Below are positions 27,719 to 64,000 of a stretch of 64,000 nucleotides of DNA, one piece after another (within the stretch, counting starts at the first letter, position 1; each line of letters starts with the position of its first letter). Location: assembly GCA_030248195.1 (NCBI GenBank), contig JASAND010011108.1, forward strand, positions 1 to 64,000, read 5' to 3'. Position numbers and translations under genes: made by a program. A model generated the notes under the pieces. It saw only the letters and a program-made list of their open reading frames with translations, did no database searches and was not told the origin of the DNA. The stretch comes from Trissonchulus latispiculum (lineage: Eukaryota > Nematoda > Enoplea > Enoplida > Ironidae).

Positions 27719-27810
27719 GGTTTGCCGCTACTTCCGAAGGAAAAGGGCAAACCCTTATTCTCGTCGTGTTATTATTGGGTTGTCGCATTTTTTTTAAAAA
27801 AAGACAACCC
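27719..27810 (+). repeat. Solo hairpins H1 (27719-27753) and H2 (27777-27810)
   Basis: H1 pairs GGTTTGCC with GGCAAACC; H2 pairs GGGTTGTC with GACAACCC around T8A7. Each is followed by about 20 nt and then T/A-rich TTATT. They mark the left edge of the element array. Confidence 0.8.
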
Positions 27811-27839
27811 TTTGATATGGCTAAGTTTCTTTATTTATT

Positions 27840-28568
27840 GGGTTGCCGCTTTTTCAACAAAAAGGCAACCCTTTAACTTGGGTATGTCCGTTATTTCTTT
27901 ATTATTATTTATTTATTATTCTCCGGATTCTTGTCCCCCCCTCTATCTCGAGATTGGGAAGGGGTATAGAGGTGGTTGATACCTCATTTTGAAGGTCTTG
28001 ACTTGAACTGCTCCCGGAAGCGCGGGGAGCCCCGGGGGAGCTGAGGTGCTCCCGGAGCACCCCCGTGAGTAAAAATGAGTAAAATAAAAAAGTTGTCCAA
28101 ATGAGCTAATTTTGGTATCATTCGAAAGCTCTCGGCGAGTAATGAAAAAGTTGTAATAGGATCAAGGCCTGAAAATGCACCCATTTTGAGTTATGAGGCC
28201 GAAAATGGTCAAAAATTGCCAAAAACGGCCAAAATGGCTCAAAATTGAAAGTTCTCAGATCGGACTCATATCGATGGCATTCGAAAGCTCTCGTTGCGTA
28301 GATTAAAAGTTGTAATGGGGCCAAAGCACCAAAATGTACAGAAAATGGGTTACGGGGCCTCAAAGGGGTCAAAAATGGCCAAAGCTGGCCATGGGTCAAA
28401 ATTGAAAATTGTCGGATCCGGTCGATACCGGTGTCATTCGGAAGCTCTCATTGAGTAGGTAAAAAGTTGTAATAGGGCCAAAGCTCTTAAATGTAGGGCA
28501 GCTTCAGATATGACTCCTGATAAGAGGAAATATGCCAGCGGCAACCCATTCATGCCACTTTGCTTGTT
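27840..28568 (+). mobile_element. Hairpin-capped element, family H3, beta body
   Basis: 5' hairpin GGGTTGCC/GGCAACCC (27840-27871), ATT-rich run, poly-C and CTCGAGATTGG head near 27940, beta units, then the tail AGCGGCAACCC (28537-28547) complementary to its own 5' end. Confidence 0.75.
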
Positions 28569-28602
28569 GGGTTCCCGCCCTTTTCCAAAGGGTTTGGAAC
28601 CC
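28569..28602 (+). repeat. Solo hairpin H4
   Basis: GGGTTCC pairs with GGAACCC, with an inner CCCTTT/AAAGGG stem; followed by CTATGTTCTGGACATG and TTATT repeats. Confidence 0.8.
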
Positions 28603-28638
28603 TATGTTCTGGACATGTTTATTATTATTCTTATTATT

Positions 28639-29648
28639 GGGTTGTCGCATTTTTTTAAAAAAAGACAACCCTTTGTTATGGGAAAGTTTCTTTATTTATT
28701 ATATCGGTAAACAATCTTGTCCCCCCCCCCTTTTTCTCGAGATTGGCTGGACCGATCGAGCTGAAATTATCAGTACCAGTTGGGGGTGGGGTGAAGTGGT
28801 ACCGGAAGTGCGGGTAGCCCGATACCTCCCGGATTCCGGGAATGGCAGCTCCCGGAATTTTTAAAAATGGTAAGGGGGGACCAAGGGAAACGTAAAAATT
28901 TTTTGTCTCCGATTTCGCTCAAAAGTTGGTCATAGGGTAATTCGACCATGCTGATTTCGAAACTGAAATCGAAATTTCCGGAAAATTTACGGATTTCGAG
29001 ATATTCGCCCCGGAAAATTTCGGATTTTGAAAAATTTCTTCAAAAGTAGTCGATATGGTACTCAAATGAAAGAACTCGTCGAGCTGAGCAACTTTCCTTC
29101 TTGCGACATTTTCCGGGAATGTGTCTAGCGAAAGTTATAGCCGAAAAACTGAAAATCCGGGAATTCACGAAAACCCGGATTTTGGACTAAAAATTTTTTG
29201 TCTCCGATTTTGCTTAAAAGTTGGTCATAGGGTAACTCGACCACGCTGATTTCGAAACTGGAATCTACTTTTCCGGAAAATGTACGAATTTCGAGATATT
29301 CGGCCCGGAAAATTCCGGATTTAGAAAAATTTCCCCAAAAGTGGTCAATATGGGGCTCAAATGAAAGAGCTCGTCGAGCTGAGCAACTTTGCTTCTTGCG
29401 ACATTTTTGGAAAATGGGCCTTGCGAAAGTTCCGTCCGAAAAACCGAAAATCCGGGAATTCCCGGAAAATCGGAATTTTTAAAAATTGTCTCAAAAGTAG
29501 TCGATATGGTACTCATTTGAAAGCTCTCAACGAGTAGGAAGAAGGTTGCAATAGAACCAAGTTCTGAAAATGTACCAAAACTGAGTTTTGGCCCTTTAGA
29601 TAAGAGGAAAATGGCTGCGACAACCCGTTGATGCCGGTAGGATTTATT
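28639..29648 (+). mobile_element. Hairpin-capped element, family H2, alpha body
   Basis: 5' hairpin GGGTTGTC/GACAACCC (28639-28671); head with poly-C, TTTTTCTCGAG and GATTGGCTGGACCGATCG; alpha units; tail TGCGACAACCC at 29616-29626, ending GATTTATT. Confidence 0.75.
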
Positions 29649-31284
29649 ATTCTTATTATTGTCCACATTTTCGTGTACCCCCCCTCTATCTCGAGATTGG
29701 AAAGGGATAGAGAGGTGGTTGATACCTCATTTTGAAGGTCTTGACTTGAACTGCTCCCGGAAGCGCGGGGAGCCCCGGGGGAGTAGAGGCGCTCCCGAAG
29801 CACCCCCGTGAGTAAAAATGAGTAAAATAAAAAAGTTGTCCAAATGAGCTAATTTTGGTATCATTCGAAAGCTCTCGGCGAGTAATGAAAAAGTTGTAAT
29901 TGGGTCAAGGCCTGAAAATGCACCCATTTTTAGTTATGAGGCGAAAAAGGGTCAAAAATGGCCAAAAACGGCCAAAACGGCCGTTTGAAGGGGTTTTCCG
30001 CCTTTATCTCGAGCTAGAGTCAACTAGTTGGCCTGAAATTTGGCATGTAGGGTGGCACCCGATGCGGGAAGACCCTCCGGGCACCTGGGTTCCATAGTGT
30101 CAGGCAATTAGCAATTACTCGATACGGTGATGCTGCAAATGGTCAAAATTGAAAGTGACGAAAACCCCCTAATATGGATATCATTTGATAGCTCTCGTTG
30201 CGTAAATAAAAAGTTGTAATAGAGGTAAAGCGCCAAAATGTAGAAGAAAAGAGTTACGGGGCTCCAAAGGGGTCAAAAATGGCCAGAAACGGTCAAAATG
30301 GGCCAAATTTGAAAATTGTCCGATACGGCTGATACCGGTGTCATTCGAAAGCTCTCGTTGCGTGGATAAAAAGTTATAATAGGGATAAAGCGTCAAAATG
30401 TAGAAACAATAAGTTACGGGGCTCCAAAGGGGTCAAAAATGGCCAGAAACGGTCAAAATGGGTCAAAATTGAAAGTGCCGGAAACCCCCCAATATGGGTC
30501 TCATTCGAAAGCTCTCGTTGCGTAGGTAAACAGTTGTAATAGGGTTAAAGCGTCAAAATGTAGGAAAAATGAGCTACGGGGCTCCAAAGGGGTCAAAAAT
30601 GGCCAGAAACGGTCAAAATGGGCCAAAACTGAAAATTGTCAGATACGGCTGATACCGGTGTCATTCGAAAGCTCTCGTTGCGTGGATAAAAAGTTGTAAT
30701 AGGGCCAAAGCGTCAAAATGTAGGAAAAATGAGTTACGTGGTTCCAAAGGGGTCAAAAATGGCCAGAAACGGTCAAAATGGGCCAAAATTAAAAGTTGTC
30801 GGAAACTCCCCAATATGGATACCATTCGACAGCTCTCGTTGCGTGGATAAAAAGTTGTAATAGGGCCAAGGCGTCAAAATGTAGGAAAAATTAGTTACGG
30901 GGCCTCAAAGGGGACAAAAATGGCCAAAAACAGGTCAAAATGTGTCAAAATTGAAAATTGCCGGATCCGGTCGATACCGACGTCATTCGAAAGCTCTCGT
31001 TGAGTAGATAAAAAGTTGTAATAGGGCCGAAGCGTCAACGTGTACGAAAAATGAGTTACAGAGCTTCAAATGGAGCAAAAATGAGCAAAAACGGTCAAAA
31101 TCGAACTTTGTCGGATTGGTCTGATAGTGATATAAATCGAAAGCTTTTGGCGAGCTGGGAGTGGGAACCAGTTATAATAGACGAAAACTAGTAACTGCAT
31201 ATTTTTCCAGAAAGTATATACATAAACTCATTCTATAAACGGAAAAATGTCGGGCGGGAACCACTTGATGCCTTTTGACTTATT
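29649..31284 (+). mobile_element. Family H4 element body without its own 5' hairpin, beta array
   Basis: H4-type head (GTCCACATTTTCGTG, poly-C) near 29660, long beta array of 160-161-bp units marked by TCATTCGAAAGCTCTCG, tail GGGCGGGAACC at 31252-31262. The preceding tail is H2, so the 5' hairpin was lost or replaced. Confidence 0.65.
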
Positions 31285-31628
31285 GGGTTCCCGCCCCTTT
31301 TCCAAAGGGTTTGGAACCCTATGTTCTGGACATGTTTATTATTATTGGGTTCCCGCCCTTTTCCAAAGGGTTTGGAACCCTATGTTCTGGACATGTTTAT
31401 TATTATTATTCTTATTCTTATTATTGGGTTCCCGCCCTTTTCCAAAGGGTTTGGAACCCTATGTTCTGGACATGTTTATTATTCTTATTGGGTTCCCGCC
31501 CTTTTCCAAAGGGTTTGGAACCCTATGTTCTGGACATGTTTATTATTATTATTATTCTTATTATTATTGTGTTGCCCACTTTTCCAAAGGAAATGGCAAC
31601 ACCTTGTTATCGTTCTGTGCTTATTATT
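31285..31628 (+). repeat. Run of solo hairpins: H4 x4, then H5
   Basis: H4 hairpins start at 31285, 31347, 31436 and 31490 and are nearly identical, joined by TTATT/CTT repeats; an H5 hairpin starts at 31569. Shows hairpin modules multiplying without a body. Confidence 0.85.
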
Positions 31629-32331
31629 GTGTTGCCCACTTTTCCAAAGGAAATGGCAACACCTTGTTATTGGTCTGTGCTTATTATTATCCGTCTGTCC
31701 CCCCCCTAGATCTCGAGATTGGGAAGGGGTACAGGGATGGTTGATACCTTATTTTGAAGCCCTTGACTAGGACATCTCCCGGAAGCAAGACGGTTCCGAA
31801 ATTCCGGGTTTTGAAATTTAGGATTTTTTCGGGTGGTAAGGGGGGACCAAGGCGAAATTTCAAAAGTCCAAAATTTTGTCAAAACTTTTTGTCTCCGATT
31901 TGGCTCAAAAGTCGGTCATAGGGTAACTCGGCCACGCTGATTTCGAAACTGAAATCGAAATTTCCGGAAAATTACGGATTTCGAGATATTCGATCCGAAA
32001 GATTCCGGATTTTGAAAAATTTCTCCAAAAGTGGTCGATATTGGGCTCAAATGAAAGAGCTCGTCGCGCTGAGTAATTTTTGTCATTACCATATTTTCCG
32101 GAAATGTTTCTAGCAAAAGTTATGGCGGCAGATTGGAAAATCCGGAATTTCCGGAAAAAACCGGGTTTTCAAAAATTCGTTGAAACATGGGCAATATGGT
32201 ACTTAATTGAAAGCTCGTTGAGTCCTGGGACAGATTTCCTGAACAGAAACAGCTCAAAAGGTGTCTAGCAAAATTTATACCCTAAAGGAATGTGTAGTGG
32301 GCAACACATTCTTGCAGTAGCGCTAGTTATT
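31629..32331 (+). mobile_element. Hairpin-capped element, family H5, alpha body
   Basis: 5' GTGTTGCC/GGCAACAC hairpin, ATCCGTCTG poly-C head, alpha body, tail GTGGGCAACAC at 32297-32307, ending CGCTAGTTATT directly against the next H5 hairpin. Confidence 0.78.
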
Positions 32332-33041
32332 GTGTTGCCCACTTTTCCAAAGGAATGGGCAACACTTTGTTATCGTTCTGTGCTTATTATTATCCGTCTG
32401 TCCCCCCCCTAGATCTCGAGATTGGAAAGGGGTACAGGGATGGTTAATACCTTATTTTGAAGCACTTGACGAGGACATCTCCCGGAAGCAAGATGGTTCC
32501 GAAATTCCGGGTTTTGAAAATTCGGATTTTTTCCGGTGGTAAGGGGGGACCAAGGCGAAATTTCAAAAATCCAAAATTTGGTCAAAAATTTTTTGACTCC
32601 GATTTTGCTTAAAAGTTGGTCATAGGGTAATTCGACCACGCTGATTTCGGAACTAGAATCGAAATTTCAGGAAAATTTACGGATTTCGAGATACTCGACC
32701 CGGAAAATTCCGGATTTTGAAAAAATTTTCCAAAAGTGGTCGATATGGTACTCAAATGAAAGAGCTCGTCGAGCTGAGTAATTTTCATCATTTCTGTATT
32801 TTCCGGAAATGCTTCTAGCGAAAGTTATGGCCGCAGATTGGAAAATCCGGAATTTCCGGAAAAAAACGGGATTTTCAAAAGCTCGTTGAAACACGGACAA
32901 TATGGTGCTTAATCGAAAGCCCTTTTAGTCCTGGGACAGATTTCCTGAACAGAAATAGCATAACAGGTATATATCGAGCTAAGTTTATACCCCAAAGGAA
33001 CATGTAGTGGGCAACACATTCTTGCAGTAGCGCTAGTTATT
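32332..33041 (+). mobile_element. Hairpin-capped element, family H5, alpha body
   Basis: Abuts the previous element at a shared TTATT. Tail GTGGGCAACAC at 33007-33017. Confidence 0.78.
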
Positions 33042-33859
33042 ATTATTATTATTATTATCCGTCTGTCCCCCCCCCTAGATCTCGAGATTGGGAAGGCGTA
33101 CAGAGGTGGTTGATACCTTATTTTGAAGCCCTTGACTAGGACATCTCCGGGAAGCAAGATGGCTCCGATACCTTCCGGATTCCGGGAATGGCGAATCCCG
33201 GAATTTTTCGGTTGGTAAGGGGGGACCAAGGTGAAATTTCAAAATCCTAAATTTGGTCAAAAATTTTTTGTCTCCGATTTCGCTCAAAAGTTGGTCATAG
33301 GGTAACTCGACCACGCTGATTTCGAAACTGAAATCGAAATTTCCGGAAAATTTCCGGATTTCGAGATAATCGACCCGGAAAATTCCGGATTTTGAAAAAT
33401 TTCTTCAAAAGTGGTCGATATGGTACTCAAATGAAAGATCTCGTCGAGCTGAGCAACTTTCCTTCTTGCGACATTTTCCAAAAATGCGTCTAGCGAAAGT
33501 TATGTCCGAAAAAGTGAAAATCCGGGAATTCACGAAAATCCGGATTTTGGGTTGAAAAATTTTTTGTCTCCGATTTTGCTTAAAAGCTGGTCATAGGGTA
33601 ATTCGACCACGCTGATTTCGAAACTAAAATCGAAATTTCCCGAAATTTACGGATTTCGATATATTCGTTCCGGAAAATTCCGGATTTTGAAAAATTTCTC
33701 TGAAAGTGGTCGATATCGTGCTCAAACGAAAGAGTTCGTCGAGCTGAGCAACTTTCCTTCTTGCGACATTTTCTGAAAATGCCTCTAGCGAAAGTTATGG
33801 CAGAAAAATAAACAGAAAAACCAGTTGTGGGCAACACATTCTTGCTGTAGCGCTAGTTC
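33042..33859 (+). mobile_element. Family H5 body without 5' hairpin, alpha
   Basis: ATTn, ATCCGTCTG poly-C head, two alpha units, tail GTGGGCAACAC at 33827-33837. Confidence 0.68.
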
Positions 33860-35075
33860 TTCTTATTATTATTGTCCACAATTTCGTGTCCCCCCCTCTA
33901 TCTCGAGATTGGAAAGGGGTAGAGAGGTGGTTGATACCTCATTTTGAAGGTCTTGACTTGAACTGCTCCCGGAAGCGCGGGGAGCCCCGGGGGAGCAGAG
34001 GTGCTCCCGGAGCACCCCCGTGAGTAAAAATGAGTAAAATAAAAAATTGTCCAAATGAGCTAATTTTGGCATCATTCGAAAGCTCTCGGCGAATAATGAA
34101 AAAGTTGTAATAGGGTCAAGGCCTGAAAATGTACCTATTTTGAGTTATGAGGCGAAAAAGGGTCAAAATGGCCAAAAACGGCCAAAACGGCCGTTTGAAG
34201 GGGTTTTCCGCCTTTATCTCGAGCTAGAGTCAACTAGTTGGCCTGAAATTTGGCATGTAGGGTGGCACCCGATGCGGGAAGGCCCTCCGGGCACCTGGGT
34301 ACCATAGTGTCACACAATTCGCAATTACTCGATACGGTGATGCTGCAAATGGTCAAAATTGAAAGTGACGAAAACCCCCCAATATGGATATCATTCGAAA
34401 GCTCTCGTTGCGTGGATAAAAAGTTGTAATAGGGCCAAGGCGTCAAACTGTAGGAAAAATGAGTTACGGGGCCTCAAAGGGGTCAAAAATGGCCAGAAAC
34501 AGGTCAAAATGGGTCAAAATTGAAAATTGTCGGATCCGATCGATACCGATGTCATTCGAAAGCTCTCGTTGAGTAGACAAATAGTTGTAATAGGACCGAA
34601 GCTCCAAAATGTAGGACAAATGAGTTACGGGGCCCCAAAAGGGTCAAAAATGGTTAAAACCGGTCAAAATGGGTCAAAATTGAAAATTGTCGGATCCGAT
34701 TAATACTGGTGTCATTCGGAAGCTCTCGTTGCGTAGATAAAAAGTTGTAATAGGGCCAAAGCGGCAGAATGTCGGAAAAATGAGTTACGGAGCCTCAAAG
34801 GGATCAGAAATGACCAAAATCGGTCAAAATGGGCCAAAATTGAAAATTGTTGGATACGGCTGCTACTGGTGTCATTCGAAAGCTCTCGTTGCGTGGATAA
34901 AAAGTTGTAATAGGGCCAAAGCGTCAAAATGTAGGAAAGATGAGTTACCGGGCCGCAAATGTGCAAAAAAGGACCAAAACCGACCAAAGTGGGCCAAAAA
35001 TGAAAGTTGTCCAATAAGGCTGATATGGATATCATTCGAAAGCTCTAGTTGCGCAGATAAAAAGTTGTAATAGGT
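33860..35075 (+). mobile_element. Family H4 body, beta array, separated from its tail by the Helitron region
   Basis: H4-type head near 33875 and about seven beta units. No tail follows before the Helitron region; the next H4 tail is at 46875-46885, so this element was probably split by the Helitron insertion. Confidence 0.55.
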
Positions 35076-35164
35076 ATTAGTGCAATTTAGAGGAAAGTTT
35101 CTGAGTTTATAATTATGTATGTTAACATTAATTAAAGTAGAACGCTAAGCATTTAGGTGTTGGC

Positions 35165-35314
35165 TATCCCTTTGAGCACCCAAATCAGAATGAAGGTGAA
35201 TATATATAGTTTGCCCGTCCCCCTTGCGTCTCTGCCGGGCGGCGCAGATTTTTCTAAATGTTTTTTAGATGTTTAGTTGTGCTATACAGTAGCAATGGTG
35301 GTAATAGTAATGAC

Positions 35315-35353
<39 letters not shown>

Positions 35354-35450
35354 TGTAGCAGTAGTAGTAGTATTAGTTGCAGCAGCAGCAGCAGCAGCAG
35401 TGGTACCAGTAGCAGTAGCAGTAGTAGTAGCAGCAGTAGCATTTTTTGGC
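35165..35450 (+). repeat. Unique module A, then module B with AGT/AGC microsatellite
   Basis: Module A (35167-35205) contains TTGAGCACCCAAATCAGAAT. Module B (about 35270) starts GTTTAGTTGTGCTATA and runs into a long AGT/AGC trinucleotide repeat. Both modules recur at 56790-56925 in the reverse order. Open Ser/Val/Leu frames across the repeat are artefacts. Confidence 0.7.
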
Positions 35451-35836
35451 TTCTATATTTAGTTGAATAGTTTTATTTTAATATTTTTAGTAGATCGCTT
35501 GTATTACAGTTATTTGCAAATTTAATTTTTTTAGTTTCAGATCTGGTTACTGAATATTTATGACATTTAAGTTGCTTTAATCAGTGTGTCCTCTTACAAT
35601 ATCTTATCTTTTCCTTTAATCGGTTATCCTTTAACTCTAAGCCTGTGCATTAACTGTGCTATTCCTTCTCATCAGATATTTCCTGTCATTATCTGTCCTA
35701 TTACATCTCATTTTCCTACTTTAATACATTTCCATGTGACTATTTGTGACTTGGATTACTTACCTGGTTTCTTACCTGATTAACTTTGTGAATTCATTTG
35801 ACTGAAGTTGTGGTTTCCTTGAATTAACTGTGTGAC

Positions 35837-38308
35837 ATGGCAAGGAAAAGGCGAAATGAACGGGAAGCTGCTGCTAGGCGGAAGTCCCGGGAAGCTGAGA
35901 AGAAAAGGCGGTCCAGAAAGAGGGCAGCCGAATCCAGAAAAGTGGAAGATGAGGCTGCTTGTTCGGCTGTGGCTTTGGAAACTGGAGACGGTGGTGCTAT
36001 CATTGACTCTGCGGCAGAAGGGTCAGGTGCTAGTCTGGCTGATGGTGGTGGGTCGGCTAGAACTGAATATTTTCGTGACTATAAACGGAGGCAACGATCG
36101 AATTCAGCTGTGGTTGAAAGGGAGAGGACGCAGCGGGAACGGCGTTTGAGTGACAGCTTTGAAATTGAACTGCAGCGAAGACGTATGGCGGTTCGCATGG
36201 AAGATCCGATGGAAAGGGAGCGACAGACGGGTAGGATGGCTGCTCGCTACGAGGACCCGGTGGAAAGGGGGCGACAGTTGGGTAGGATGGCTGTTCGCTA
36301 CGAGGACCCGGTGGAAAGGGAACGCGTGCTGGGCAGGATGGCTGCTCGCTACGAGGACCCGGTGGAAAGGGAACGTGTGCTGAGCAGGAGGGCTGCTCGC
36401 TACCAGGACCCGGTTGAAAGGGAGCGGCAGCTGGGCAGGATGGCTGCTCGCTACGAGGACCCGGTGGAAAGGGAGCGGCAGCTGGGCAGGATGACTGCTC
36501 GGTACGAGGACCCGGTGGAAAGGGAGCGGCAGCTGGGCAGGATGACTGCTCGCTACGAGGACCCGGTGGAAAGGGAGCGGCAGCTGGGCAGGATGGCTGC
36601 TCGCTACGAGGACCCGGTGGAAAGGGAGCGACAGATTGAAAGGGTGGCCAAAAGGTTGGAAGATCCAACTGTGCGGCAAGGACATCGTGATGATATGCGG
36701 GAAAGGATGCGCCGCATTCGGGAGTCAGATCCATTGTGGAAGGACTTTGAAGAGATGCGGCAGCAGGGGCCAACCAGCGTTTGCTGTGTCTGCCATCAGT
36801 ATTCCTACCCCGACTATATGCTTGAACTGCAAAGGGTTCAGAATAATAAGGTTGTGCAGTCAGCTCTGAAATTGTTCAGAGAGGCAAATTGTGAAATGTG
36901 TGCTCGCCGTGATCCTGAAGAAAAGGAGGCGAAGAAGATCTGTAAGTACTGTCGTCAGAAGCTGGGTCAAAACGAAGTGCCCCGTCTGCGTCCCGGTAAC
37001 TTTCGTGTGGTGGCGTTGCCCGATCAGTTGAAGGACCTCCGTCCCTTGGAAGCCACCATGGTCAACCCTTGCATTCCCTTCATGAAGATTCAGCAGGTAC
37101 CCTCCTGCAAGACAGACCGTATCCATGGAAACGTTGTCTGTGTCCCTGCTGATTTGTTCAAGTCCGTGGCGGTGCTTCCTCGATCACTGGCTGCCTGTTC
37201 CGTTGTCTGTGTGGAACTGCGGCGTCAGCGAGAAAAGGCACGTGCTTACCGAAAGGAGCGCGTGAGGACACAGGTTGTCGTCGACGCTGTGCGATTCCTT
37301 TATCGCCATGGTGACTTTTACAGATCCATTGTGGAATTGGACCTTGGGGAATGGGCGGCCCAGTTTTCAACCAACGTGGACCTTGACATGCTGATTGAGA
37401 ATACTGGTGTGGTGGAAGGCATTGATACTAGCATTTGCCCTGCCAGTAATCACGGTGACTGTATTTGTGCTGCAAATTGTGCCCCTGATTTAAATCGTGA
37501 CGATGTGGCTGGCAGTGATGAGGAGAATGACGCTGTGCCTTCCGGCGTCGAATCGGGTCCTGCTGGTGGTGATGGGGGTGGTGATGGTGGGCAGGATAGT
37601 GGGTCTGATGAGGAATGGGAAGAGGAGGCCCCTAATGACACTGTCCGTCCCATGAATCCGGATACCATGATCAGTGCTAATGACCCAGACGACGAAAATC
37701 TGATGACCTTGGCTAGCATGTATGATCTGGGCGATGAGAAACTGATTGTGAATCCTGCGGAGGGTAGGATGCCTGTCCCTCCCTTGATGCAACCGGAAGT
37801 GGAAGCCATGTGCTTCGCCCACCTTTACGGCGGACAGTCCCTTCCTAAGACTACCATGACCCTGTCGGAACGTGCTAAATATTTGATGCGTTCCGAAGAT
37901 CCCCGGTGGAAGCGATGCGTTGACTTTGTGTTCTTTCTGACCAAACTGTTGCAGATGAAGCGAGTCCACGAGGGAATTTCCACTGCCCTAAAGAAGACCA
38001 AAGTTGGGAGGCATGGTCAAAGCATTACTGTGTCTGATCTGTTCCAACGTGAAACGTTGGACCGGATGGCGAAAGACGACGAGGCTTTCAACTTCCTTCG
38101 CAATGTGCGCTGCAGCCCGGCTTACTTCAAGGCAGCCAAGAAGGATTTGTTTGCCTTCATTCGTCAACTGGGCGGCCCAACCTGGTTTGTGACCTTAACA
38201 TCGGCAGAATTGCGGTGGGTTGAACTGTTGGTGATCCTGAAGAGCCAAGTGGACGGCGAGGAAATCACGGAAGAGGATGCGGCCCGATTGCCCTGGCCCG
38301 AGGTGTGA
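35837..38308 (+). CDS. Helitron N-terminal protein part (zinc finger, DUF6570-like, Helitron-like N domain)
   Basis: 823 residues, ending in TGA at 38306-38308 and continuing in the same frame as the next ORF. Very basic start (MARKRRNEREAAARRK), then about ten copies of a 16-residue repeat (residues about 115-270). A Cys cluster follows (CCVCHQ, CEMC, CKYC), then a DUF6570-like segment (LRPGNFRVVALPDQL, KTDRIHGNVV). The Helitron-like N domain has AFNFLRNVRCSPAYFK and GGPTWFVTLTSAE. The frame breaks off exactly where Rep begins, so the stop is best read as a nonsense change or a readthrough site inside one protein. Confidence 0.88.
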   Translation: MARKRRNEREAAARRKSREAEKKRRSRKRAAESRKVEDEAACSAVALETGDGGAIIDSAAEGSGASLADGGGSARTEYFRDYKRRQRSNSAVVERERTQRERRLSDSFEIELQRRRMAVRMEDPMERERQTGRMAARYEDPVERGRQLGRMAVRYEDPVERERVLGRMAARYEDPVERERVLSRRAARYQDPVERERQLGRMAARYEDPVERERQLGRMTARYEDPVERERQLGRMTARYEDPVERERQLGRMAARYEDPVERERQIERVAKRLEDPTVRQGHRDDMRERMRRIRESDPLWKDFEEMRQQGPTSVCCVCHQYSYPDYMLELQRVQNNKVVQSALKLFREANCEMCARRDPEEKEAKKICKYCRQKLGQNEVPRLRPGNFRVVALPDQLKDLRPLEATMVNPCIPFMKIQQVPSCKTDRIHGNVVCVPADLFKSVAVLPRSLAACSVVCVELRRQREKARAYRKERVRTQVVVDAVRFLYRHGDFYRSIVELDLGEWAAQFSTNVDLDMLIENTGVVEGIDTSICPASNHGDCICAANCAPDLNRDDVAGSDEENDAVPSGVESGPAGGDGGGDGGQDSGSDEEWEEEAPNDTVRPMNPDTMISANDPDDENLMTLASMYDLGDEKLIVNPAEGRMPVPPLMQPEVEAMCFAHLYGGQSLPKTTMTLSERAKYLMRSEDPRWKRCVDFVFFLTKLLQMKRVHEGISTALKKTKVGRHGQSITVSDLFQRETLDRMAKDDEAFNFLRNVRCSPAYFKAAKKDLFAFIRQLGGPTWFVTLTSAELRWVELLVILKSQVDGEEITEEDAARLPWPEV
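36190..36645 (+). repeat. 48-bp in-frame coding repeat
   Basis: Units ATGGCTGCTCGCTACGAGGA... at 48-bp spacing encode ARYEDPVERERQLGRM-like repeats. Copies are nearly identical in the middle and diverge at both ends, typical of recent unequal exchange. Confidence 0.9.
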
Positions 38309-43644: not shown

Positions 43645-43799
43645 CAATGTCATGTATGATTTTTTTGTGTTACTGTTGCTGTATAATCGCCATTTTTTGA
43701 CTGTACCACTGCTGTAAGTTTGCCCACAGAGATCTCCTGTAAGAGTCACTGTGTTTGCTACTGTTAATGACTAAACTGAAAAATCCACAATCGGTATAA

Positions 43800-46996: not shown

Positions 46997-47052
46997 GGGT
47001 TGTCGCATTTTTTTAAAAAAAAAAGACAACCCTTTGATATGGCTAAGTTTCT

Positions 47053-47087
<35 letters not shown>

Positions 47088-48048: not shown

Positions 48049-48111
48049 GTGTTGCCCACTTTTCCAAAGGAATGGGCAACACTTTGTTATTGGTCTGTGC
48101 TTATTATTATT
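48049..48111 (+). repeat. Solo hairpin H5
   Basis: GTGTTGCC/GGCAACAC, then CTTTGTTATTGGTCTGTGC and TTATTATTATT; a 63-bp bodyless unit. Confidence 0.8.
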
Positions 48112-48985: not shown

Positions 48986-49037
48986 GTGTTGCCCACTTTT
49001 CCAAAGGAATGGGCAACACTTTGTTATTGGTCTGTGC

Positions 49038-49071
<34 letters not shown>

Positions 49072-55488: not shown

Positions 55489-55537
55489 GGGTTCCCGCCC
55501 TTTTCCAAAGGGTTTGGAACCCTATGTTCTGGCCATG

Positions 55538-55574
<37 letters not shown>

Positions 55575-57059
55575 TTATTATTATTGTTCACATTTTCGTG
55601 TACCCCCACTCTATCTCGAGATTGGAAAGGGGTGGAGAGGTGGTTGATACCTCATTTTGAAGGTCTTGACTTGAACTACTCCCGGAAGCGCGGGGAGCCC
55701 CGGGGGAGCAGAGGTGCTCCCGGAGCACCCCCGTGAGTAAAAATGAGTAAAATAAAAAAGTTGTCCAAATGAGCTAATTTTGGTATCATTCGAAAGCTCT
55801 CGGCGAGTAATGAAAAAGTTGTAATAGGGTCAAGGCCTGAAAATGCACCCATTTTGAGTTATGAGGCCGAAAATGGTCAAAAATGGCCAAAAACGGCCAA
55901 AACGGCCGTTTGAAGGGGTTTTCCGCCTTTATCTCGAGCTAGAGTCAACTAGTTGGCCTGAAATTTGCCATGTAGGGTGGCACCCGATGCGGGAAGACCC
56001 TCCGGGCACCTGGGTTCCATAGTGTCACGCAATTAGCAATTACTCGATACGGTGATGCTGCAAATGGTCAAAATTGAAAGTGACGGAAACCCCCCAATAT
56101 GGGTATCATTCGAAAGGTCTCGTTGCGTAGGTAAAAAGTTGTAATAGGGGTAAAGCGTCAAAATGTAGGAAAAATGAGTTACGGGGCTCCAAAGGGGCCA
56201 AAAATAGCCAGAAACGGTCAAAATGGGCCAAAATTGAAAATTGTCGGATACGGCTGATACCGGTGTCATTCGAACGCTCTCGTTACGTGGATAAAAAGTT
56301 GTAATAGGGCCAACGCACCAAAATGTAGGAAAAATGAGTTACGAGGCCTCAAAGGGGTCAAAAATGGCCAAAAACAGGTCACAATGGGTCAAAATTGAAA
56401 ATTGTCGAATCCGGTCGATACCGGTGTCATTCGAAAGCTCTCGTTGAGTAGATAAAAAGTTGTAATAGGGCTGAAGCGCCAAAATGTAGGACAAATGAGT
56501 TACGGGGCCCCAAAAGGGTCAAAAATGGTAAAAACCGGTCAAAATTGAAAATTGTCGAATCCAGTTAATCCCGGTATCATTCGAAAGCTCTCGTTGCACA
56601 GATAAAAAGTTGTTATAGGTCAAAAGCGTCTAAATATCGGAAACCTGATTTGCGGAGCCTCAAAGGTGCTAAAAATAACGAAACTGATAAAAGTATGTCA
56701 TAACTGAAAGTTGCTGGAAACCTGTTAATAGGGGGGTGCTGGGGGGCGGAGCCCCCCAGAAAATGAATAACAGCGTTGTTTGGTAGCTGGATTTAAACGT
56801 TTAGTTGTGCTATATAGTAGCAATTGTGGTAATAGTAATGACAGTGGTACCAGCAGTAGTAGTAGTGGTGGTAGTAGTGATATTATCCCTTTGAGCACCC
56901 AAATCAGAATGAAGGTGAATATAAACATGGGTAGTACAAACATAAACATGGGTAGTCATAAACATACACATTGCACTTCGAACGCATTTCCTGGAAATGA
57001 GCCCTTTCTATAAACGGAAAAATGTCGGGCGGGAACCACTTGATGCCTTTTGACTTATT
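55489..57059 (+). mobile_element. Family H4 element with beta body and unique 3' region
   Basis: H4 hairpin 55489, head, beta array to about 56700, then a unique region with the CTGGGGGGC/GCCCCCCAG hairpin and modules B and A, then tail GGGCGGGAACC at 57027-57037. The most complete H4 copy. Confidence 0.74.
56739..56759. repeat. Perfect 9-bp GC hairpin with GGA loop
   Basis: CTGGGGGGC GGA GCCCCCCAG, immediately followed by AAAATGAA. Confidence 0.9.
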
Positions 57060-57071
57060 ATTATTATTATT

Positions 57072-57192
57072 GGTTTGCCGCTACTTCCGAAGGAAAAGGG
57101 CAAACCCTTATTCTCGTCGTGTTATTATTATTGGGTTGTCGCATTTTTTTTAAAAAAAAGACAACCCTTTGTTATGGGTAAGTTTCTTTATT
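57072..57192 (+). repeat. Solo hairpins H1 and H2
   Basis: H1 at 57072 and H2 at 57133, nearly identical to those at 27719 and 27777 and in the same order. Confidence 0.82.
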
Positions 57193-57901
57193 GTGTTGCC
57201 CACTTTTCCAAAGGAAATGGCAACACCTTGTTATTGGTCTGTGCTTATTATTATTATCCGTCTGTCCCCCCCCTAGATCTCGAGATTGAGAAGAGGTGCA
57301 GGGGTGGTTGATACCTTGTTTTGAAGCCCTTGACTAGGACATCTCCCGGAAGCAAGATGGTTCCGAAATTCCGGGTTTTGAAAATTCGGATTTTTTCGGG
57401 TGGTAAGGGGGGACCAAGGCGAAATTTCAAAAATCCAAAATTTGGTCAAAAATTTTTTGTGTTTGATTTGGCTCAAAAGTCGGTCATAGGGTAATTCGAC
57501 CACGCTGATTTCGAAACTGGAATCGAAATTTCAGGAAAATTTACGGATTTCGAGATATTGGACCCGGAAAATTCCGGATTTTGAAAAATTTCTCCAAAAG
57601 TGGTCGATATGGTACTTAAATGAAAGAGCTCGTCGAGCTGGGCAATTTTTATCATTACAATATTTTCCGGAAATATTTCTAGCGAAAGTTATGGCCGCAG
57701 ATTGGAAAATCCGGAATTTCCGGAAAAAACCGGATTTTCAAAAATTCGTTGAAACATGGGCAATATGGTACTTAATTGAAAGCTCATTGAGTCCTGGGAC
57801 AGACTTCCTGAACAGAAACAGCTTAAAAGGTGTCTATCAAAATTTATACCCCAAAGGAATGTGTCGTGGGCAACACATTCTTGCAGTAGCGCTAGTTTAT
57901 T
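57193..57901 (+). mobile_element. Hairpin-capped element, family H5, alpha body
   Basis: Short H5 copy resembling 31629-32331; tail GTGGGCAACAC at 57866-57876. Confidence 0.77.
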
Positions 57902-58801
57902 GGGTTGCCGCTTTTTCACAAAAAGGCAACCCTTTAACTTGGGTATGTCCGTTATTTATTATTATTATTATTTATTATTCTCCGGATTCTTGTCCCCCCC
58001 TCTATCTCGAGATTGGAAAGGGGTACAGAGGTGGTTGATACCTTATTTTGAAGGTCTTGACTTGAACTGCTCCCGGAAGCGCGGGGAGCCCCGGGGGAGC
58101 AGAGGTGCTCCCGGAGCACCCCCGTGAGTAAAAATGAGTAAAATAAAAAAGTTGTCCAAATGAGCTAATTTTGGTATCATTCGAAAGCTCTCGACGAGTA
58201 ATGAAAAAGTTGTAATAGGCTCAAGGCTTGAAAATGCACTCATTTTGAGCTATGAGGCGAAAAATGGTGAAAAATGGCCAAAAACGACCAAAATGGCTCA
58301 AAATTGAAAGTTCTCAGATCGGGCTCATATCGGTATCATTTGAAAGCTCTCGTTGCGTAGATAAAAAGTTGTAATAGGTTCAAAGCACCAAAATGTACAG
58401 AAAATGAGTTACGGGGCTCCAAACAGGTCAAAAATGGACAAAACCGTCCAAAATGGGTCAAAACTGAAAATTGTCGTATCCGGTCGATGTCGGTATCATT
58501 CGAGAGTTCTCGTTGAGTAGATAAAAAATTGTAATAGCGCCAAAGCACCAAACTGTACAGAAACTGAGTTACGGGGCATGAAAGGGGTCAAAAAAGGCCG
58601 AAACCAGTCAAAATGGGTCAAAATTGTCGAAACGTCAAAAAGCTGTCGAAACTCCACAATATGGGTATCATTCGAAAGGTCTCGTTGAGTGGATAAAAAG
58701 TTGTAATAGAGCCAAAGCTCTTAAATGTACGCAGTTTCAGATATGACTCCTGATAAGAGGAAAAATGCCAGCGGCAACCCATTCATGCCAATTTGCTTGT
58801 T
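57902..58801 (+). mobile_element. Hairpin-capped element, family H3, beta body
   Basis: 5' GGGTTGCC hairpin, TCTCCGGATTCTTG poly-C head, beta array, tail AGCGGCAACCC at 58770-58780. Confidence 0.78.
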
Positions 58802-58868
58802 GGGTTGCCGCTTTTTCAACAAAAAGGCAACCCTTTAACTTGGGTATGTCCGTTATTTATTATTTATT
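58802..58868 (+). repeat. Solo hairpin H3
   Basis: Bodyless H3 unit ending in TATTTATT, followed by H2. Confidence 0.8.
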
Positions 58869-59904
58869 GGGTTGTCGCATTTTTTAAAAAAAAGACAACC
58901 CTTTGTTATGGCTAAGTTTCTTTATTTATTTATTTATTTATTATTTATTTATTTATTATTCCGGTCAACATTTGTGTCCCCCCCCTTTTTCTCGAGATTG
59001 GCTAGACCGATCGGGCTGAAATTCTCACCATAGTTGTAGGGTGACCTGAAGTGCTCCCGTTTGTAAGGGCATCCCGATATCTCCCGGATTCCGGGAATGG
59101 CGAATCCCGGAATTTTAAAAATCGTAAGGGGGGACCAAGGGAAACGTAAAAATTTTTTGTCTCCGATTTTGCTTAAAAGTTGGTCATAGGGTAAGTCGAC
59201 CACGCTGATTTCGAAACTCAAATCGAAATTTCCGGAAAATTTCCGGATTTCGAGATATTCGACCCGGAAAATTCCGGATTTTGAAAAATTTCTCCAAAAG
59301 TGGTCGATATGGTACTCAAATGAAAGAGCTCGCCGAGCTGAACAACTTTCCTTCTTGCGACATTTTCCGGAAATGTGTCTAGCGAAAGTTATAGCCGAAA
59401 AACTGAAAATCCGGGAATTCACGAAAACCCGGATTTTGGACTTAAAAATTTTTTGTCTCCGATTTTGCTTAAAAGGTTGTCATAGGGTAAGTCGACCACG
59501 CTGATTTCGAAACTGAAATCGAAATTTCCGGAAAATTTACGGATTTCGAGATATTCGATCCGGAAAATACCGGATTTTGAAAAATTTCTCCGAAAGTGGT
59601 CGATATGGGGCTCAAATGAAAGAGCTCGTCGAGCTGAACAAGTTTCCTGCTTGCGGGATCTTCCGGAAATCCGCCTAGCGAAAGTTATAACCGAAAAACT
59701 AAAAATCCGGTAATTCCCGGAAAACCCGAATTTTAAAAAAATTGTTTCAAAAGTAGTCGACATGGTACTCATCTGAAAGCCCTCAACGAGTAGGAAAAAA
59801 TTTGTAATAGAACCAAGTTTTGAAAATGAAACAAAACTGAGTTTTGACCCTTTAGATAAGAGGAAAATGGCTGCGACAACCCGTTGATGCCGGTAGGATT
59901 TATT
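58869..59904 (+). mobile_element. Hairpin-capped element, family H2, alpha body
   Basis: Close to 46997-48048 in head and first alpha unit; tail TGCGACAACCC at 59872-59882. Confidence 0.78.
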
Positions 59905-59910
59905 ATTATT

Positions 59911-59962
59911 GTGTTGCCCACTTTTCCAAAGGAATGGGCAACACTTTGTTATTGGTCTGTGC

Positions 59963-59999
<37 letters not shown>

Positions 60000-60802
60000 C
60001 CGTCTGTCCCCCCCCTAGAACTCGAGATTGGGAAGGGGTACAGGGGTGGTTGATACCTTATTTTGAAGCCCTTGACTAGGACATCTCCGGGAAGCAAGAT
60101 GGCTCCGATACCTTCCGGATTCCGGGAATGGTGAATCCCGGAATTTTTCGGTTGGTAAGGGGGGACCAAGGCGAAATTTCGAAATCCAAAATTTGGTCAA
60201 AAATTTTTTGTCTCCGATTTTGCTTAAAAGTTGGTCATAGGGTAATTCGACCACGCTGATTTCGAAACTGAAATCGAAAGTTCCGGAAAATTTACGGATT
60301 TCGAGATATTGGACCCGGAAAATTCCGGATTTTGAAAAATGTTTCCGAAAGTGGTCGATATGGTACTCAAATGAAAGAGCTCGTCGAGCTGAACAACTTT
60401 CCTTCTTGCGACATTTTCCAGAAATGCGCCTAGCGAAAGTTACGGCCGAAAAACTGAAAATCCGGGAATTCACGAAAATCCGGATTTTGGGTCGAAAAAT
60501 TTTTTGTCTCCGATTTCACTCAAAAGTTGGTCATAGAGTAACTCGACCACGCTGATTTCGAAACTGAAAACGAAATTTCCGGAAACTTTCCGGATTTCGA
60601 GATATTCGATCCGGAAAATTCCGGATTTTGAAGAATTTCTCCAAAAGTGGTCGATATGGTGCTCAAACGAAAGAGTTCGTCGAGCTGAGCAACTTTCCTT
60701 CTTGCGACATTTTCTGAAAATGCGTCTAACGAAAGTTATGGCAGAAAAATAAACAGAAAAACCTGTTGTGGGCAACACGTTCTTGCAGTAGCGCTAGTTA
60801 TT
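59911..60802 (+). mobile_element. Hairpin-capped element, family H5, alpha body
   Basis: 5' GTGTTGCC hairpin, ATTn, head, two alpha units, tail at 60768-60778. Confidence 0.78.
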
Positions 60803-61468
60803 ATTATTATTATTATTCTCCGGATTCTTGTCCCCCCCCTCTATCTCGAGATTGGAAAGGGGTACAGAGGTGGTTGATACCTCATTTTGAAGGTCTTGAC
60901 TTGAACTGCTCCCGGAAGCGCGGGGAGCCCCGGGGGAGCAGAGGTGCTCCCGGAGCACCCCCGTGAGTAAAAATGAGTAAAATAAAAAAGTTGTCCAAAT
61001 GAGCTAATTTTGGTATCATTCGAAAGCTCTCGGCGAGTAATGAAAAAGTTGTAATAGGGTCAAGGCCTAAAAATGCACTCATTTTGAGTTACGAGGCCGA
61101 AAATAGTCAAAAATGACCAAAAACGGCCAAAACGGTTCAAAATTGAAAGTTGTCCAATTAGGCTCATATTGGTATCATTCGAAAGCTCTCGTTGCGTAGA
61201 TAAAAAGTTATAATAGGGCCAAGGCACCAAAATGTACAGAAAAGGAGTTTCGGGGCCTGAAAGGGGTCAAAAATGGCCAAAGACGGCCAAAATGGCTCAA
61301 AATTGAAAGTTGTCCAATTGGGCTCATATGGGTATCATTCGAAAGCTCTCGTTGCGTAGATAAAAAGTTGTAATAGGGCCAAAGCTCTTAAATGTACGCA
61401 GCTTCAGATATGACTCCTGATAAGAGGAAAAATGCCAGCGGCAACCCATTCATGCCACTTTGCTTGTT
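60803..61468 (+). mobile_element. Family H3 body without 5' hairpin, beta
   Basis: TCTCCGGATTCTTG head, a few beta units, tail AGCGGCAACCC at 61437-61447. Confidence 0.68.
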
Positions 61469-62515
61469 GGGTTGCCGCTTTTTCAACAAAAAGGCAACCC
61501 TTTAACTTGGGTATGTCCGTTATTTATTATTATTATTATTATTATTCTCCGGATTCTTGTCCCCCCCTCTATCTCGAGATTGGAAAGGGGTAGAGAGGTG
61601 GTTGATACCTCATTTTGAAGGTCTTGACTTGAACTGCTCCCGGAAGCGGGGGGAGCCCCGGGGGGGCAGAGGTGCTCCCGGAGCAGCCCCGTGAGTAAAA
61701 ATGAGTAAAATAAAAAAGTTGTCCAAATGAGCTAATTTTGGTATCATTCGAAAGCTCTCGGCGAGTAATGAAAAAGTTGTAATAGGGTCAAGGCCTGAAA
61801 ATGCACCCATTTTGAGTTATGAGGCCGAAAATAGTCAAAAATGGCCAAAAACGGCCAAATGGGTCAAAATTGAAAGTTCTCAGAGCGGACTCATGTCGGT
61901 ATCATTCGAAAGCTCTCATTATGTAGATGAAAAGTTGTAATGGGGCCAACGCACCAAAGTGGAGGAGAAATGAGTTACGGAGCCTCAAATGTGTCAAAAA
62001 TAACCAAAATCGGTCAAAATGGGTCAAAATTGAAAGTAACCGAAACCGCCCAATATGGATATCATTCGAAAGCTGTCGTTGCGTAGATAAAAAGTTGTAA
62101 TAGGGCCAAGGCACCAAAATGTGCAGAAAATGAGTTACGGGGCCCCAAAGGGGTCAAAAATGGCCAAAACCGGCCAAAATGGGTCAAAATTGAAAATTGT
62201 CGGATCCGGTCGATACCGGTATCATTCGAAAGCTCTCGTTGAGTAGATAAAAAGTTGTAATAGGGCCAAAGCACCAAAATGTACAGAAACTGAGTTACGG
62301 GACATGAAGGGGGTCAAAAAAGGCCGAAACCAGTCAAAATGGGTCAAAAATAAAAGTTGTCGAAACTCCACAATATGGGTGTCATTCGAAAGCTCTCGTT
62401 CAGTGGATAAAAAGTTGTAATAGAGCCAAAGCTCTTAAGTGTACGCAGTTTCAAATATGACTCCTGATAAGAGGAAAAATGCCAGCGGCAACCCATTCAT
62501 GCCACTTTGCTTGTT
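61469..62515 (+). mobile_element. Hairpin-capped element, family H3, beta body
   Basis: 5' H3 hairpin, head, beta array, tail at 62484-62494. Confidence 0.78.
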
Positions 62516-63485
62516 TATTTATTATCTCGGTAAACAATCTTGTCCCCCCCCTTTTTCTCGAGATTGGCTGGACCGATCGGGCTGAAATTTTCACCATAGT
62601 TGTAGGGTGACCTGAAGTGGTACCGGAAGTGGGGGTAGCCCGATATCTCCCGGATTCCAGGAATGGCGGCTCCCGGAATTTTTAAAAATGGTAAGGGGGG
62701 ACCAAGGGAAACGTAAAAATTTTTTGTCCCCGATTTTGCTCAAAAGTTGGTCATAGGGTAATTCGACCACGCTGATTTCGAAACTGAAATCGAAATTTCC
62801 GGAAAATTTACGGATTTCGAGATATTCGCCCCGGAAAATTTCGGATTTTGAAAAATTTCTTCAAAAATAGTCGATATGGTACTCAAATGAAAGAGCGCGT
62901 CGAGCTGAACAACTTTCCTTCTTGCGACATTTTCCGGAAATGCGTCTAGCGAAAGTTATAGCCGAAAAACTGAAAATCCGGGAATTCACGAAAACCCGGA
63001 TTTTGGACTTAAAACTTTTTTGTCTCGGATTTTGCTTAAAAGTTGGTCATAGGGTAACTCGACCACGCTGATTTCGAAACTGGAATCGAAATTTCCGAAA
63101 AATTTACGGATTTCGAGATATTCGATCCGGAAAATTCCGGATTTTGAAAAATTTGCTCAAAACTGGTCAATATGGTACTCAAACGAAAGAGCTCGTCGCG
63201 CCGAGTAATTTTTATTATTGCCGTATTTTCTGAAAATGTTTCTGGCGAAAGTTATGGCCGCAGATTGGAAAATCCGTAATTTCCGGAAAAACAGGAATTT
63301 TAAAAAATTGTCCTAAAACTTGTCAATATGGTACTTATTCGAAAGCTCACAGCGAGTAGGGAAAAAGTTGTGATAGGGCCAAAGTCTGAAAATGTTCCAA
63401 AACTGAGTTTTAGCCCGAGCCAATATAAGCACAGAGGAATAAGAGGAAACTGCGCGACAACCCGTTGATGCCGGTAGGATTTATT
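62516..63485 (+). mobile_element. Family H2 body without 5' hairpin, alpha
   Basis: CGGTAAACAATCTTG poly-C head, two alpha units, tail GCGACAACCC at 63454-63463, end GATTTATT. Confidence 0.68.
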
Positions 63486-64000
63486 GGGTTGCCGCTTTTT
63501 CAACAAAAAGGCAACCCTTTAACTTGGGTATGTCCGTTATTTATTATTATTTATTTATTATTCTCCGGATTCTTGTCCCCCCCCTCTAACTTTTGATTGG
63601 CTGGACCGATCCGGCTGAAATTTTCAGGGGGAGTTGGGGGTGACCTAAAGTGCTCCCGGAAACGCGGGGAGTTCGGTACTTCCCGGATTCCGGAAATGGC
63701 GGTACCCGGAATTTTTTAGAATGGTAAGGGGGGACCAAGGGAAACGTAAAAATTTTTTGTCTCCGATTTTGCTCAAAAGGTGGTCATAGGGTAAGTCGAC
63801 CACGCTGATTTCGAAACTGAAATCGAAATTCCCGGAAAATTTACGGATTTCGAGATATTGGACCCGGAAAATTCCGGATTTTGAAAAATTTTTCCAAAAG
63901 TGGTCAATACGGTACTCAAATGAAAGAACTCGTCGAGCTGAACAACTTTCCTTCTTGCGACATTTTCCGGAAATGTGTCTAGCGAAAGTTATGGCCGAAA
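63486..64000 (+). mobile_element. H3-capped hybrid element with alpha body, cut by window end
   Basis: H3 hairpin and H3-type TCTCCGGATTCTTG head, but the CTCGAG is changed to CTTTTGATTGGCTGG and an alpha body follows, a combination not seen in the other H3 copies. Confidence 0.62.

Follow-up and report, generated by a model that had tools for sequence, protein, structure and literature searches.

Clustered Helentrons and HINEs with paired ends in Trissonchulus latispiculum, probably arranged by nested insertion

Between positions 27719 and 64000, a 64,000-nucleotide stretch of the Trissonchulus latispiculum contig JASAND010011108.1 (the window, meaning this whole stretch) carries short hairpins and, further along, sequences complementary to one arm of these hairpins. 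The locus raises the question of what kind of element has two distant ends that match by family, and why several of these ends lie apart from a partner. Our results suggest that the region is very likely a cluster of related Helentrons, consisting of one coding, apparently broken copy of family H4 together with many HINEs of families H2 to H5, and probably built with nested insertions.

Layout of the array and pairing of its ends

The array is composed of heads, which are 5' hairpin subTIRs, and of bodies that end in a tail. It includes the following uninterrupted copies.

27719..64000, all + strand: the array, with 30 heads, 24 body-plus-tail units and one end-cut body
27840..28566, + strand: H3 HINE (head 27840, tail 28537)
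28639..29643, + strand: H2 HINE, nested within 28569-31280
46997..48043, + strand: H2 HINE
50695..51566, + strand: H5 HINE
55489..57055, + strand: H4 HINE
57193..57896, + strand: H5 HINE
57902..58799, + strand: H3 HINE
61469..62513, + strand: H3 HINE

The counts were taken from the arm search, which gave 30 heads in the window, all exact (H1 2, H2 5, H3 5, H4 9, H5 9; the H1 head was searched as a 10-mer), and 24 tails (H2 4, H3 4, H4 5, H5 11). Removed before counting were two one-mismatch H4 matches beyond the array (21027 and 11135), four GGTTTTCCGC matches within bodies, the H1/H3 cross-matches, and five H5 ATGGGCAACAC matches that are the 3' arms of the hairpins themselves. H1 is represented by two heads only, with no tail within the window, and the body of the H3 head at 63486 continues past the window end.

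The original prediction of a mobile element that has several families and whose ends go in pairs was supported: the 15 uninterrupted copies lie at the positions it gave, and the head and the next tail are of one family in 15 of 15. Shuffling the head labels gave a mean of 3.7 such pairs and a maximum of 10, and none of 20,000 shuffles reached 15. The 11-bp complementarity that it described between head arm and tail was found in general, but two of the four H2 tails agree at only 10 of 11 bases (CGCGACAACCC), and the H4 match, of 11 bases, is offset by one (head bases 2-12). Except for these two H2 tails, the subTIRs of each family share the at least 11 identical bp that define a family among the Helentrons/HINEs of mite, mosquito and Drosophila, including DINE-1, in the accessible part of PMC4067079.

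It was also proposed that the ends are recognised in trans. The same-family rule alone is no proof of this, because copies amplified as units match their ends by descent; copying as units, together with nesting, accounts for the rule. The arms are distinct among H2, H3, H4 and H5, and the tails change in step with them. Only this covariation of both ends between families, which fits paired recognition, argues for it. There is also a remainder: 9 of the 24 bodies have no head immediately upstream, and after 14 heads the next part is a further head instead of a body.

Anatomy of the elements and the coding copy

As we read the boundaries, a T is followed by the 11-bp subTIR within the hairpin, about 15 bp, and a TTATT- or TTTA-type tract; then come a start rich in C, a central part with satellite-like repeats (about 160 or 296 bp) and the 3' subTIR, complementary to the 5' arm of the head, with 17-20 bp and a T after it. 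A microsatellite 3' of the 5' subTIR with central tandem repeats beyond it is the arrangement expected of HINEs, and the elements here have it. TT stands immediately 5' of 30 of 30 heads (TTATT in 25) and T directly 3' of 23 of 24 tails, as expected for insertion between two Ts. The target is a simple repeat, in which a short target site duplication would not stand out. None of the 30 heads lies inside a body, though the bodies contain 2764 of the 3265 TT sites; we rely on these counts alone, since the corresponding probability of 5e-32 presumes equal and independent TT sites. No clear 3' stem-loop was found among the copies folded (one per family, without a shuffled control), with -2.0 to -4.2 kcal/mol for the last 60 nt and 0.0 to -0.8 kcal/mol for the part 3' of the subTIR. 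At the H5 3' end, TAGCGCTA was noticed by eye.

The original prediction held that no enzyme is in the window. This was not borne out, as the stretch 35837-42778, inside an element with H4 ends, encodes a Rep together with a PIF1 helicase and an endonuclease. The autonomous-type relative with shared termini, which it suggested looking for, was found within the window, broken by an in-frame stop.

31490..46904, + strand: coding H4 Helentron (body 33870-46904, tail subTIR 46877; three H5 copies between head and body; its head at 31490 was assigned through the nested parse)
35837..38308, + strand: ORF 1, with DUF6570 and the first part of Helitron_like_N (Rep)
38309..42778, + strand: ORF 2, in the same frame as ORF 1, with the remaining Rep, the PIF1-like helicase and the Exo_endo_phos_2 endonuclease
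42775..43491, + strand: UCH/USP-type domain in a different frame
43926..45531, + strand: 211-bp tandem repeat with 7.6 copies, within the 3' portion of the coding element

ORF 1 terminates at a stop within the Rep domain, and Pfam Helitron_like_N was matched in both ORFs; with this in-frame stop, the copy is probably inactive. ORF 2 has HNH at the HUH position, the two-tyrosine stretch YIVSYMLK, and the endonuclease motifs GDFN and SDH. The Rep with HUH (middle residue N here) and two tyrosines, the PIF1-like helicase downstream of it (PF05970, E 1e-22) and the C-terminal AP-type endonuclease are the features of a Helentron, although the endonuclease match (PF14529, E 4.8e-5, 23.6 bits) is under the curated Pfam cutoff of 27.4. 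At least 53 homologues were found among 8000 candidates scored, the best 34% identical. In an alignment with 10 homologues, the helicase loop, the two-tyrosine stretch and both histidines of the HUH position were present in all 10, with HIH, HVH, HMH or HTH where the coding copy has HNH, and the endonuclease region was alignable in 7 of 10, at GDFN and SDH. No ORF 2 relatives and no exact H5 or H4 tail patterns were found in viral contigs, nor an exact H4 head pattern in prokaryote contigs, and the tRNA and Rfam (gathering) scans gave no match.

The coding copy belongs to H4, as over the first 420 nt of its body the identity with each of the four other H4 bodies is 95.9-97.1%. All four H4 HINE bodies match it both there and over the last 50-66 nt (92.9-98% by BLAST), while the last 91 nt of H4 copies are only 69.3-79.1% identical by global alignment. 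The H4 HINE at 55489..57055 retains two short pieces of the region 5' of the ORFs. Ends in common with an autonomous-type copy were found for H4 only, and no coding copy of H1, H2, H3 or H5 lies within the window.

The plan, for which the original prediction knew no described eukaryotic transposon, is that of Helentrons and HINEs as presented in the accessible parts of PMC4067079 and PMC7492417, and the elements are new members of this class. Other candidates were rejected: the canonical Helitron (Helitron1; 5'-TC, 3'-CTRR, A/T insertion, according to the part of PMC5148889 at hand) by the ends and flanks, Helitron2 (asymmetric inverted repeats without an endonuclease) by the presence of the endonuclease, and a SaTar-type microsatellite-targeted MULE by the Rep-helicase gene and the nested parse.

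Nested insertion and its alternatives

Taking the mechanism from the class, the Rep would nick the 5' end, the helicase would peel one strand away, the 3' subTIR region would act as the stop mark, and the strand or circle would go in between two Ts. The internal tract of older copies may then have received new ones, which parted a head from its body. A strict stack (bracket) parse paired 22 of the 24 tails with a head of the same family and left two H5 tails (52355, 55454) and eight heads, including the end-cut one at 63486. Of the nine tails that do not adjoin a head, seven were paired, each closing an earlier head of its own family. By chance such pairs numbered on average 2.2 under head shuffles and 3.0 under tail shuffles; seven was equalled by 2 of 20,000 head-label shuffles, 63 of 20,000 tail-label shuffles and, out of 15 rotations, no other one. 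In a laxer control, a non-crossing matching with free skipping of unmatched heads, the optimum was still seven, but 165 of 3000 shuffles equalled it. The best reading of seven of the nine headless bodies, and of 7 of the 14 solo heads, is that they belong to older copies which younger ones cut in two at the internal TTATT-type tract. The split copies besides the coding one, and the parts left over, are as follows.

28569..31280, + strand: H4 HINE (head 28569, body from ~29658, tail 31253), read as split by H2 28639-29643; the split falls in its internal tract
31285..31489, + strand: three H4 heads (31285, 31347, 31426) with no partner tail in the window
31569..33857, + strand: H5 HINE (head 31569, body 33067, tail 33827), read as split by H5 copies 31629-32327 and 32332-33037
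48049..50693, + strand: H5 HINE (head 48049, body 49904, tail 50663), read as split by H5 copies 48112-48981 and 48986-49871
51576..52385, + strand: H5 body and tail (52355), headless after the nested parse
52390..54668, + strand: H4 HINE (head 52390, body 53852, tail 54641), read as split by H4 52454-53818
54675..55484, + strand: H5 body and tail (55454), headless after the nested parse
57133..63480, + strand: H2 HINE (head 57133, body 62544, tail 63453), the outermost copy of a nest that encloses six others
58802..61466, + strand: H3 HINE (head 58802, body 60832, tail 61437), read as split by H2 58869-59899 and H5 59911-60798

When the inserts were excised in silico, an ordinary tract was regained in 7 of 7 cases, which fits recombination between tracts as well as nesting; the check cannot tell the two apart because the unpaired halves have similar tracts. 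H2 is the sole family with visible paired subtypes, and its pairing is kept across its nest. Divergence, compared for H5 only, showed no clear trend, with inner copies not clearly younger than outer ones. The H5 subtypes are no test of nesting either, because the head subtypes, as we read them, do not follow the body subtypes.

The orphan parts could instead come from a linear array, in which copies were inserted side by side into TTATT and tract recombination later deleted bodies or heads. This is unlikely, in our estimation: it predicts that the families of orphan parts are independent of their order, whereas seven of the nine headless bodies close an earlier head of their family, a contrast with chance that the laxer control weakens. 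The splits do sit in TTATT- or TTTA-type tracts, where recombination would act, and erosion fits the three consecutive H4 heads, the two unpaired H5 bodies and the seven solo heads without a partner; the SaTar MULE arrays of plants are linear and non-nested in the portion of PMC5907723 available. For the strings of several heads, composite transposition, in which several 5' heads move jointly with one body and tail, has a somewhat better chance, though we still doubt it. Such head-head-body strings are present, H1 being followed by H2 twice (27719, 57072), and the accessible text of PMC5148889 describes Fusarium FoHelis in which one 3' terminus goes with more than one 5' terminus, and proposes this route. 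The H2 heads differ between the two H1-H2 pairs, so these are not recent copies of one composite, and headless bodies that close an earlier head are left unexplained.

A new, non-Helentron class of transposon with the Rep-helicase gene as a mere passenger is highly improbable, since the coding copy shares its ends with the H4 HINEs, and the TT target, palindromic subTIR, microsatellite and satellite-like repeats fit the class as published in the parts seen. What speaks for it is the 3' end, with no clear stem-loop and a subTIR 17-20 nt from the end as against 38-60 nt in the mite elements of PMC4067079, in its available part.

Within the preferred reading of nested Helentrons, it is a tentative further thought, to which we give a modest chance, that the elements carry their own landing pad: the TTATT tract would attract copies that spare the bodies, so that the array grows like nested brackets; the two ends of each family would be recognised as a pair, and the coding copy would carry a USP-type deubiquitinase. 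Nesting through a self-carried microsatellite is one of the less ordinary features of the array. Coates, in 2010, reportedly described a Helitron-like element disrupting (GAAA)n microsatellites. In the open literature searched, chiefly titles and abstract openings, we found no description of Helentrons that nest within an internal microsatellite of their own. As far as the accessible text goes, self-inserted and nested Helitrons (PMC5148889), neighbouring and tandem elements (PMC4067079) and nested Helitrons in a fly (PMC3630058) are already published. Nesting, if true, would allow relative dating of insertions from such arrays and show how a transposon makes its own harmless target; the array is a readable record of which element may have inserted into which. 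Paired recognition of the ends, if true, could leave an outer copy able to move together with its entire cargo. Several end families of one Helentron lineage beside a coding relative also offer a natural comparison of end covariation.

Relation to known elements and the USP-type domain

The comparisons here are with the accessible parts of the papers. The Helentrons of PMC4067079 share with the array the Rep-helicase-endonuclease, subTIRs (palindromes in the mite and mosquito elements), a TT target, microsatellites, tandem repeats, and non-autonomous copies bearing the ends of the autonomous one. In contrast, our array has the 5' subTIR at the extreme end, as the boundary was read, the 3' subTIR nearer the end, no clear 3' palindrome, and many copies nested in a single cluster. 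Cg_HINE of the Pacific oyster (PMC7492417), likened by description, also has an 11-12 bp 5' subTIR with a complementary inverted repeat, a microsatellite, satellite-like repeats and a 3' subTIR; its motifs are mostly of 4 nt, whereas the tract here is of TTATT type and the copies are clustered and nested. The Lepidoptera Hel-2 Helitrons (PMC4344730) have a 5' inverted repeat, subterminal inverted repeats and a microsatellite 3' of the 5' repeat, but this is (CTGT)n, and that part of the paper describes no nested clusters. Fusarium FoHeli/Helitron2 (PMC5148889) resembles the array in that it has asymmetric terminal inverted repeats and a 5' hairpin, lacks the 3' hairpin in one group, inserts into itself and combines several 5' ends with a single 3' end; unlike the array, it is without an endonuclease domain, with one nested copy reported and the word microsatellite absent from the paper. 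The SaTar arrays of guayule and rice (PMC5907723) likewise hold several families in microsatellites, but they are linear MULE arrays in which no element interrupts another, while here the target tract lies within the element and the array contains a Helentron gene.

The other less ordinary feature is the predicted USP-type deubiquitinase domain that the coding copy carries. The assignment rests on a Pfam match and on motifs that we take to be of USP type; an in-frame stop lies upstream of the His-box-like stretch, and a PDB search with this piece gave no match at E 0.01. Helitron-borne deubiquitinases of VTD and OTU type are on record in the accessible part of PMC9741609, likewise as domains within a transposon, but the domain here is of USP/UCH type; it follows the endonuclease in a different frame, and a stop interrupts it. 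The open literature searched, chiefly titles and abstract openings, gave no account of a USP/UCH domain in a Helitron. If true, it would be an extra enzyme class beside the reported OTU and herpes-tegument types.

The window also contains a LINE-type ORF with 245 homologues, from which we take the host to be a eukaryote. Among the 120 matches listed, the best three, on contigs of 2-3 kb, are 57-60% identical, and the named matches are mostly invertebrates, along with a green alga and bacterial bins.

Family-matched ends and the Helentron plan

When the arm sequences and their complements were searched for, 30 heads (5' hairpin subTIRs) and 24 tails (distant 11-mers complementary to the 5' arm of the head) remained after exclusions at 27719-63486, on the + strand throughout. 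In 15 copies a tail directly followed a head, and the two ends belonged to the same family in 15/15, while head-label shuffling in 20,000 trials gave a mean of 3.7 agreements and a maximum of 10. These are the same 15 copies on which the original prediction had based its family-matched ends, and the matching is real. It had also proposed recognition of the ends in trans. The same-family rule is insufficient for that proposal, because copies amplified as units retain matching ends. The arms are distinct among families H2, H3, H4 and H5, and the tails vary in step with them; this gives a stronger hint that the ends may be recognised. The predicted folds of the five head families ranged from -9.1 to -13.1 kcal/mol. 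H1 heads were seen at 27719 and 57072, each with an H2 head next, and no H1 body (the part ending in a tail) or H1 tail was found in the window.

TT precedes 30/30 heads (TTATT 25, TTGTT 3, TTTTT 1, TAGTT 1), and T follows 23/24 tails. The bodies are uninterrupted by heads (0 cases), despite 2764 TT sites in bodies vs 272 in the internal tracts of TTATT or TTTA type and 229 in head units. The single orientation of all elements would follow from the near confinement of TTATTATT to one strand of the array, with 129 occurrences on the + strand and 1 on the - strand. At the tail-then-head junctions (28566-63486), the gap was 5 nt or less in 12/15, which is tighter than random use of the tract would suggest.

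It is reported in the cited parts of PMC4067079 that Helentrons insert in TT, that some copies carry microsatellites or tandem repeats, that a family is delimited by subTIR identity over at least 11 bp, and that the Helentrons of a mite have palindromic subTIRs of 12-15 bp. In the oyster elements, as outlined in the cited part of PMC7492417, an 11-12 bp 5' subTIR comes first, together with its complementary inverted repeat (7-12 bp); next are a microsatellite and repeats of satellite-like type, and then the 3' subTIR and a palindrome. All the items listed in these portions are also present in the array, except for a clear 3' palindrome. The last 60 nt fold weakly (-2.0 to -4.2 kcal/mol, one copy from each of four families, without a control), and the H5 3' end reads TAGCGCTA by eye. 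The elements are new families of a known class, the Helentrons and their non-autonomous forms (HINEs), and the suggestion of an undescribed plan is not borne out.

The coding H4 copy

The features of the window are as follows.

5-2797, - strand: LINE-type reverse transcriptase ORF (PF00078) and a second ORF with a weak endonuclease match
19455-23158, - strand: two long ORFs of 390 and 827 aa, matching no Pfam family (best, a weak Retrotrans_gag, E 0.012)
27719..64000, + strand: array
31490..46904, + strand: coding H4 Helentron (body 33870-46904; head at 31490 assigned by the nested parse)
35837-42778, + strand: DUF6570, Helitron_like_N (Rep), PIF1-like helicase and endonuclease (Pfam)
42775-43491: UCH/USP domain behind the Helentron endonuclease, in another frame (Pfam E 7.2e-11)
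43926-45531: 211-bp tandem repeat, 7.6 copies, inside the coding Helentron and 3' of the genes there

A single stop codon ending at 38308 interrupts the Rep domain, and the endonuclease match scores under Pfam's cutoff. Of 8000 candidates scored in the protein search, 53 were homologues; the best had 34% identity across 95% of the searched part, and the named sources are, among others, oysters, a chiton, a crinoid, rotifers and two fungi. When 10 homologues were aligned with the coding copy, both HUH-position histidines, the stretch YIVSYMLK with its two tyrosines and the loop of the helicase recurred in 10/10. The middle HUH residue is N in the coding copy, where the homologues carry I, V, M or T. 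The endonuclease region aligns in 7/10 and is missing from 3. The cited parts of PMC4067079 and PMC5148889 define a Helentron by a Rep-helicase with a C-terminal endonuclease. Therefore, an enzyme gene of a type fitting the ends is present in the window, where none had been recognised before. By analogy with its class, the Rep would nick at the 5' end, the helicase would drive strand displacement, termination would occur near the 3' subTIR, and insertion would proceed without duplication.

On its 5' side the coding region has a body start of H4 type (33870), on its 3' side an H4 tail (46877), and this coding copy shares its ends with the H4 HINEs. The first 420 nt of its body show 95.9-97.1% identity to 4/4 other H4 bodies, and its last 50-66 nt show 92.9-98% identity to H4 copies by BLAST. 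Aligned globally, the last 91 nt agree at just 69.3-79.1%, since the copies diverge further inward. Two short segments from upstream of the coding copy's ORFs survive in the H4 copy at 55489. Taken together, the data suggest that the H4 HINEs are related to a coding element of this kind or arose from one by deletion. Within the window, no coding copy of the other families was seen.

Probable nested order of the copies

Bodies without a directly preceding head number 9/24. In a bracket parse, where heads open, tails close and the innermost open head alone may be closed, a same-family head is closed by 7 of the 9, and these account for 7/14 solo heads (heads followed by another head). Seven was reached in 2/20,000 shuffles of head labels and 63/20,000 of tail labels, and among 15 head-label rotations the true one alone reached it, the rest giving 3 or fewer. 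A laxer test, in which heads may be skipped, also gave 7, yet 165/3000 shuffles attained this. When the inserts were cut out, 7/7 nested copies showed a tract like those in uninterrupted copies; the tracts of unpaired halves are similar too. H2 is the sole family with visible paired subtypes: ATGGG heads go with bodies starting CGGTAAACAATC and ATGGC heads with CGGTCAACATT in 3/3 uninterrupted copies, and the nested H2 pair 57133/62544 keeps this pairing. These observations support a nested order, and the arrangement of the array is unusual and probably nested. Nesting is a likely, though not proven, explanation of the orphan halves.

At 63486-64000, the interior that follows an H3 head and an H3-type start looks by eye like H2 bodies. 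This copy may be a chimera, with its tail beyond the window.

The deubiquitinase-type domain

The USP/UCH-type domain is an unusual one. In its translation, a stretch like a Cys box is seen along with QQDSHEFF; past a stop, in the same frame, there is also a stretch like a His box. The in-frame stop suggests that the deubiquitinase of the coding copy no longer works. The precomputed domains of the 53 homologues included OTU in 12, herpes-tegument in 5 and UCH in 0. Among four homologues scanned, OTU followed the endonuclease in 1/4, OTU and the tegument domain each lay near the N-terminus in 1/4, and neither was present in 1/4. The cited part of PMC9741609 describes VTD and OTU deubiquitinases carried by Helitrons, whereas that of the coding H4 copy is of the USP/UCH type. 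Among the matches listed in a literature search, seen in part, no USP-type domain in a Helitron was found. The domain may be a captured host gene.
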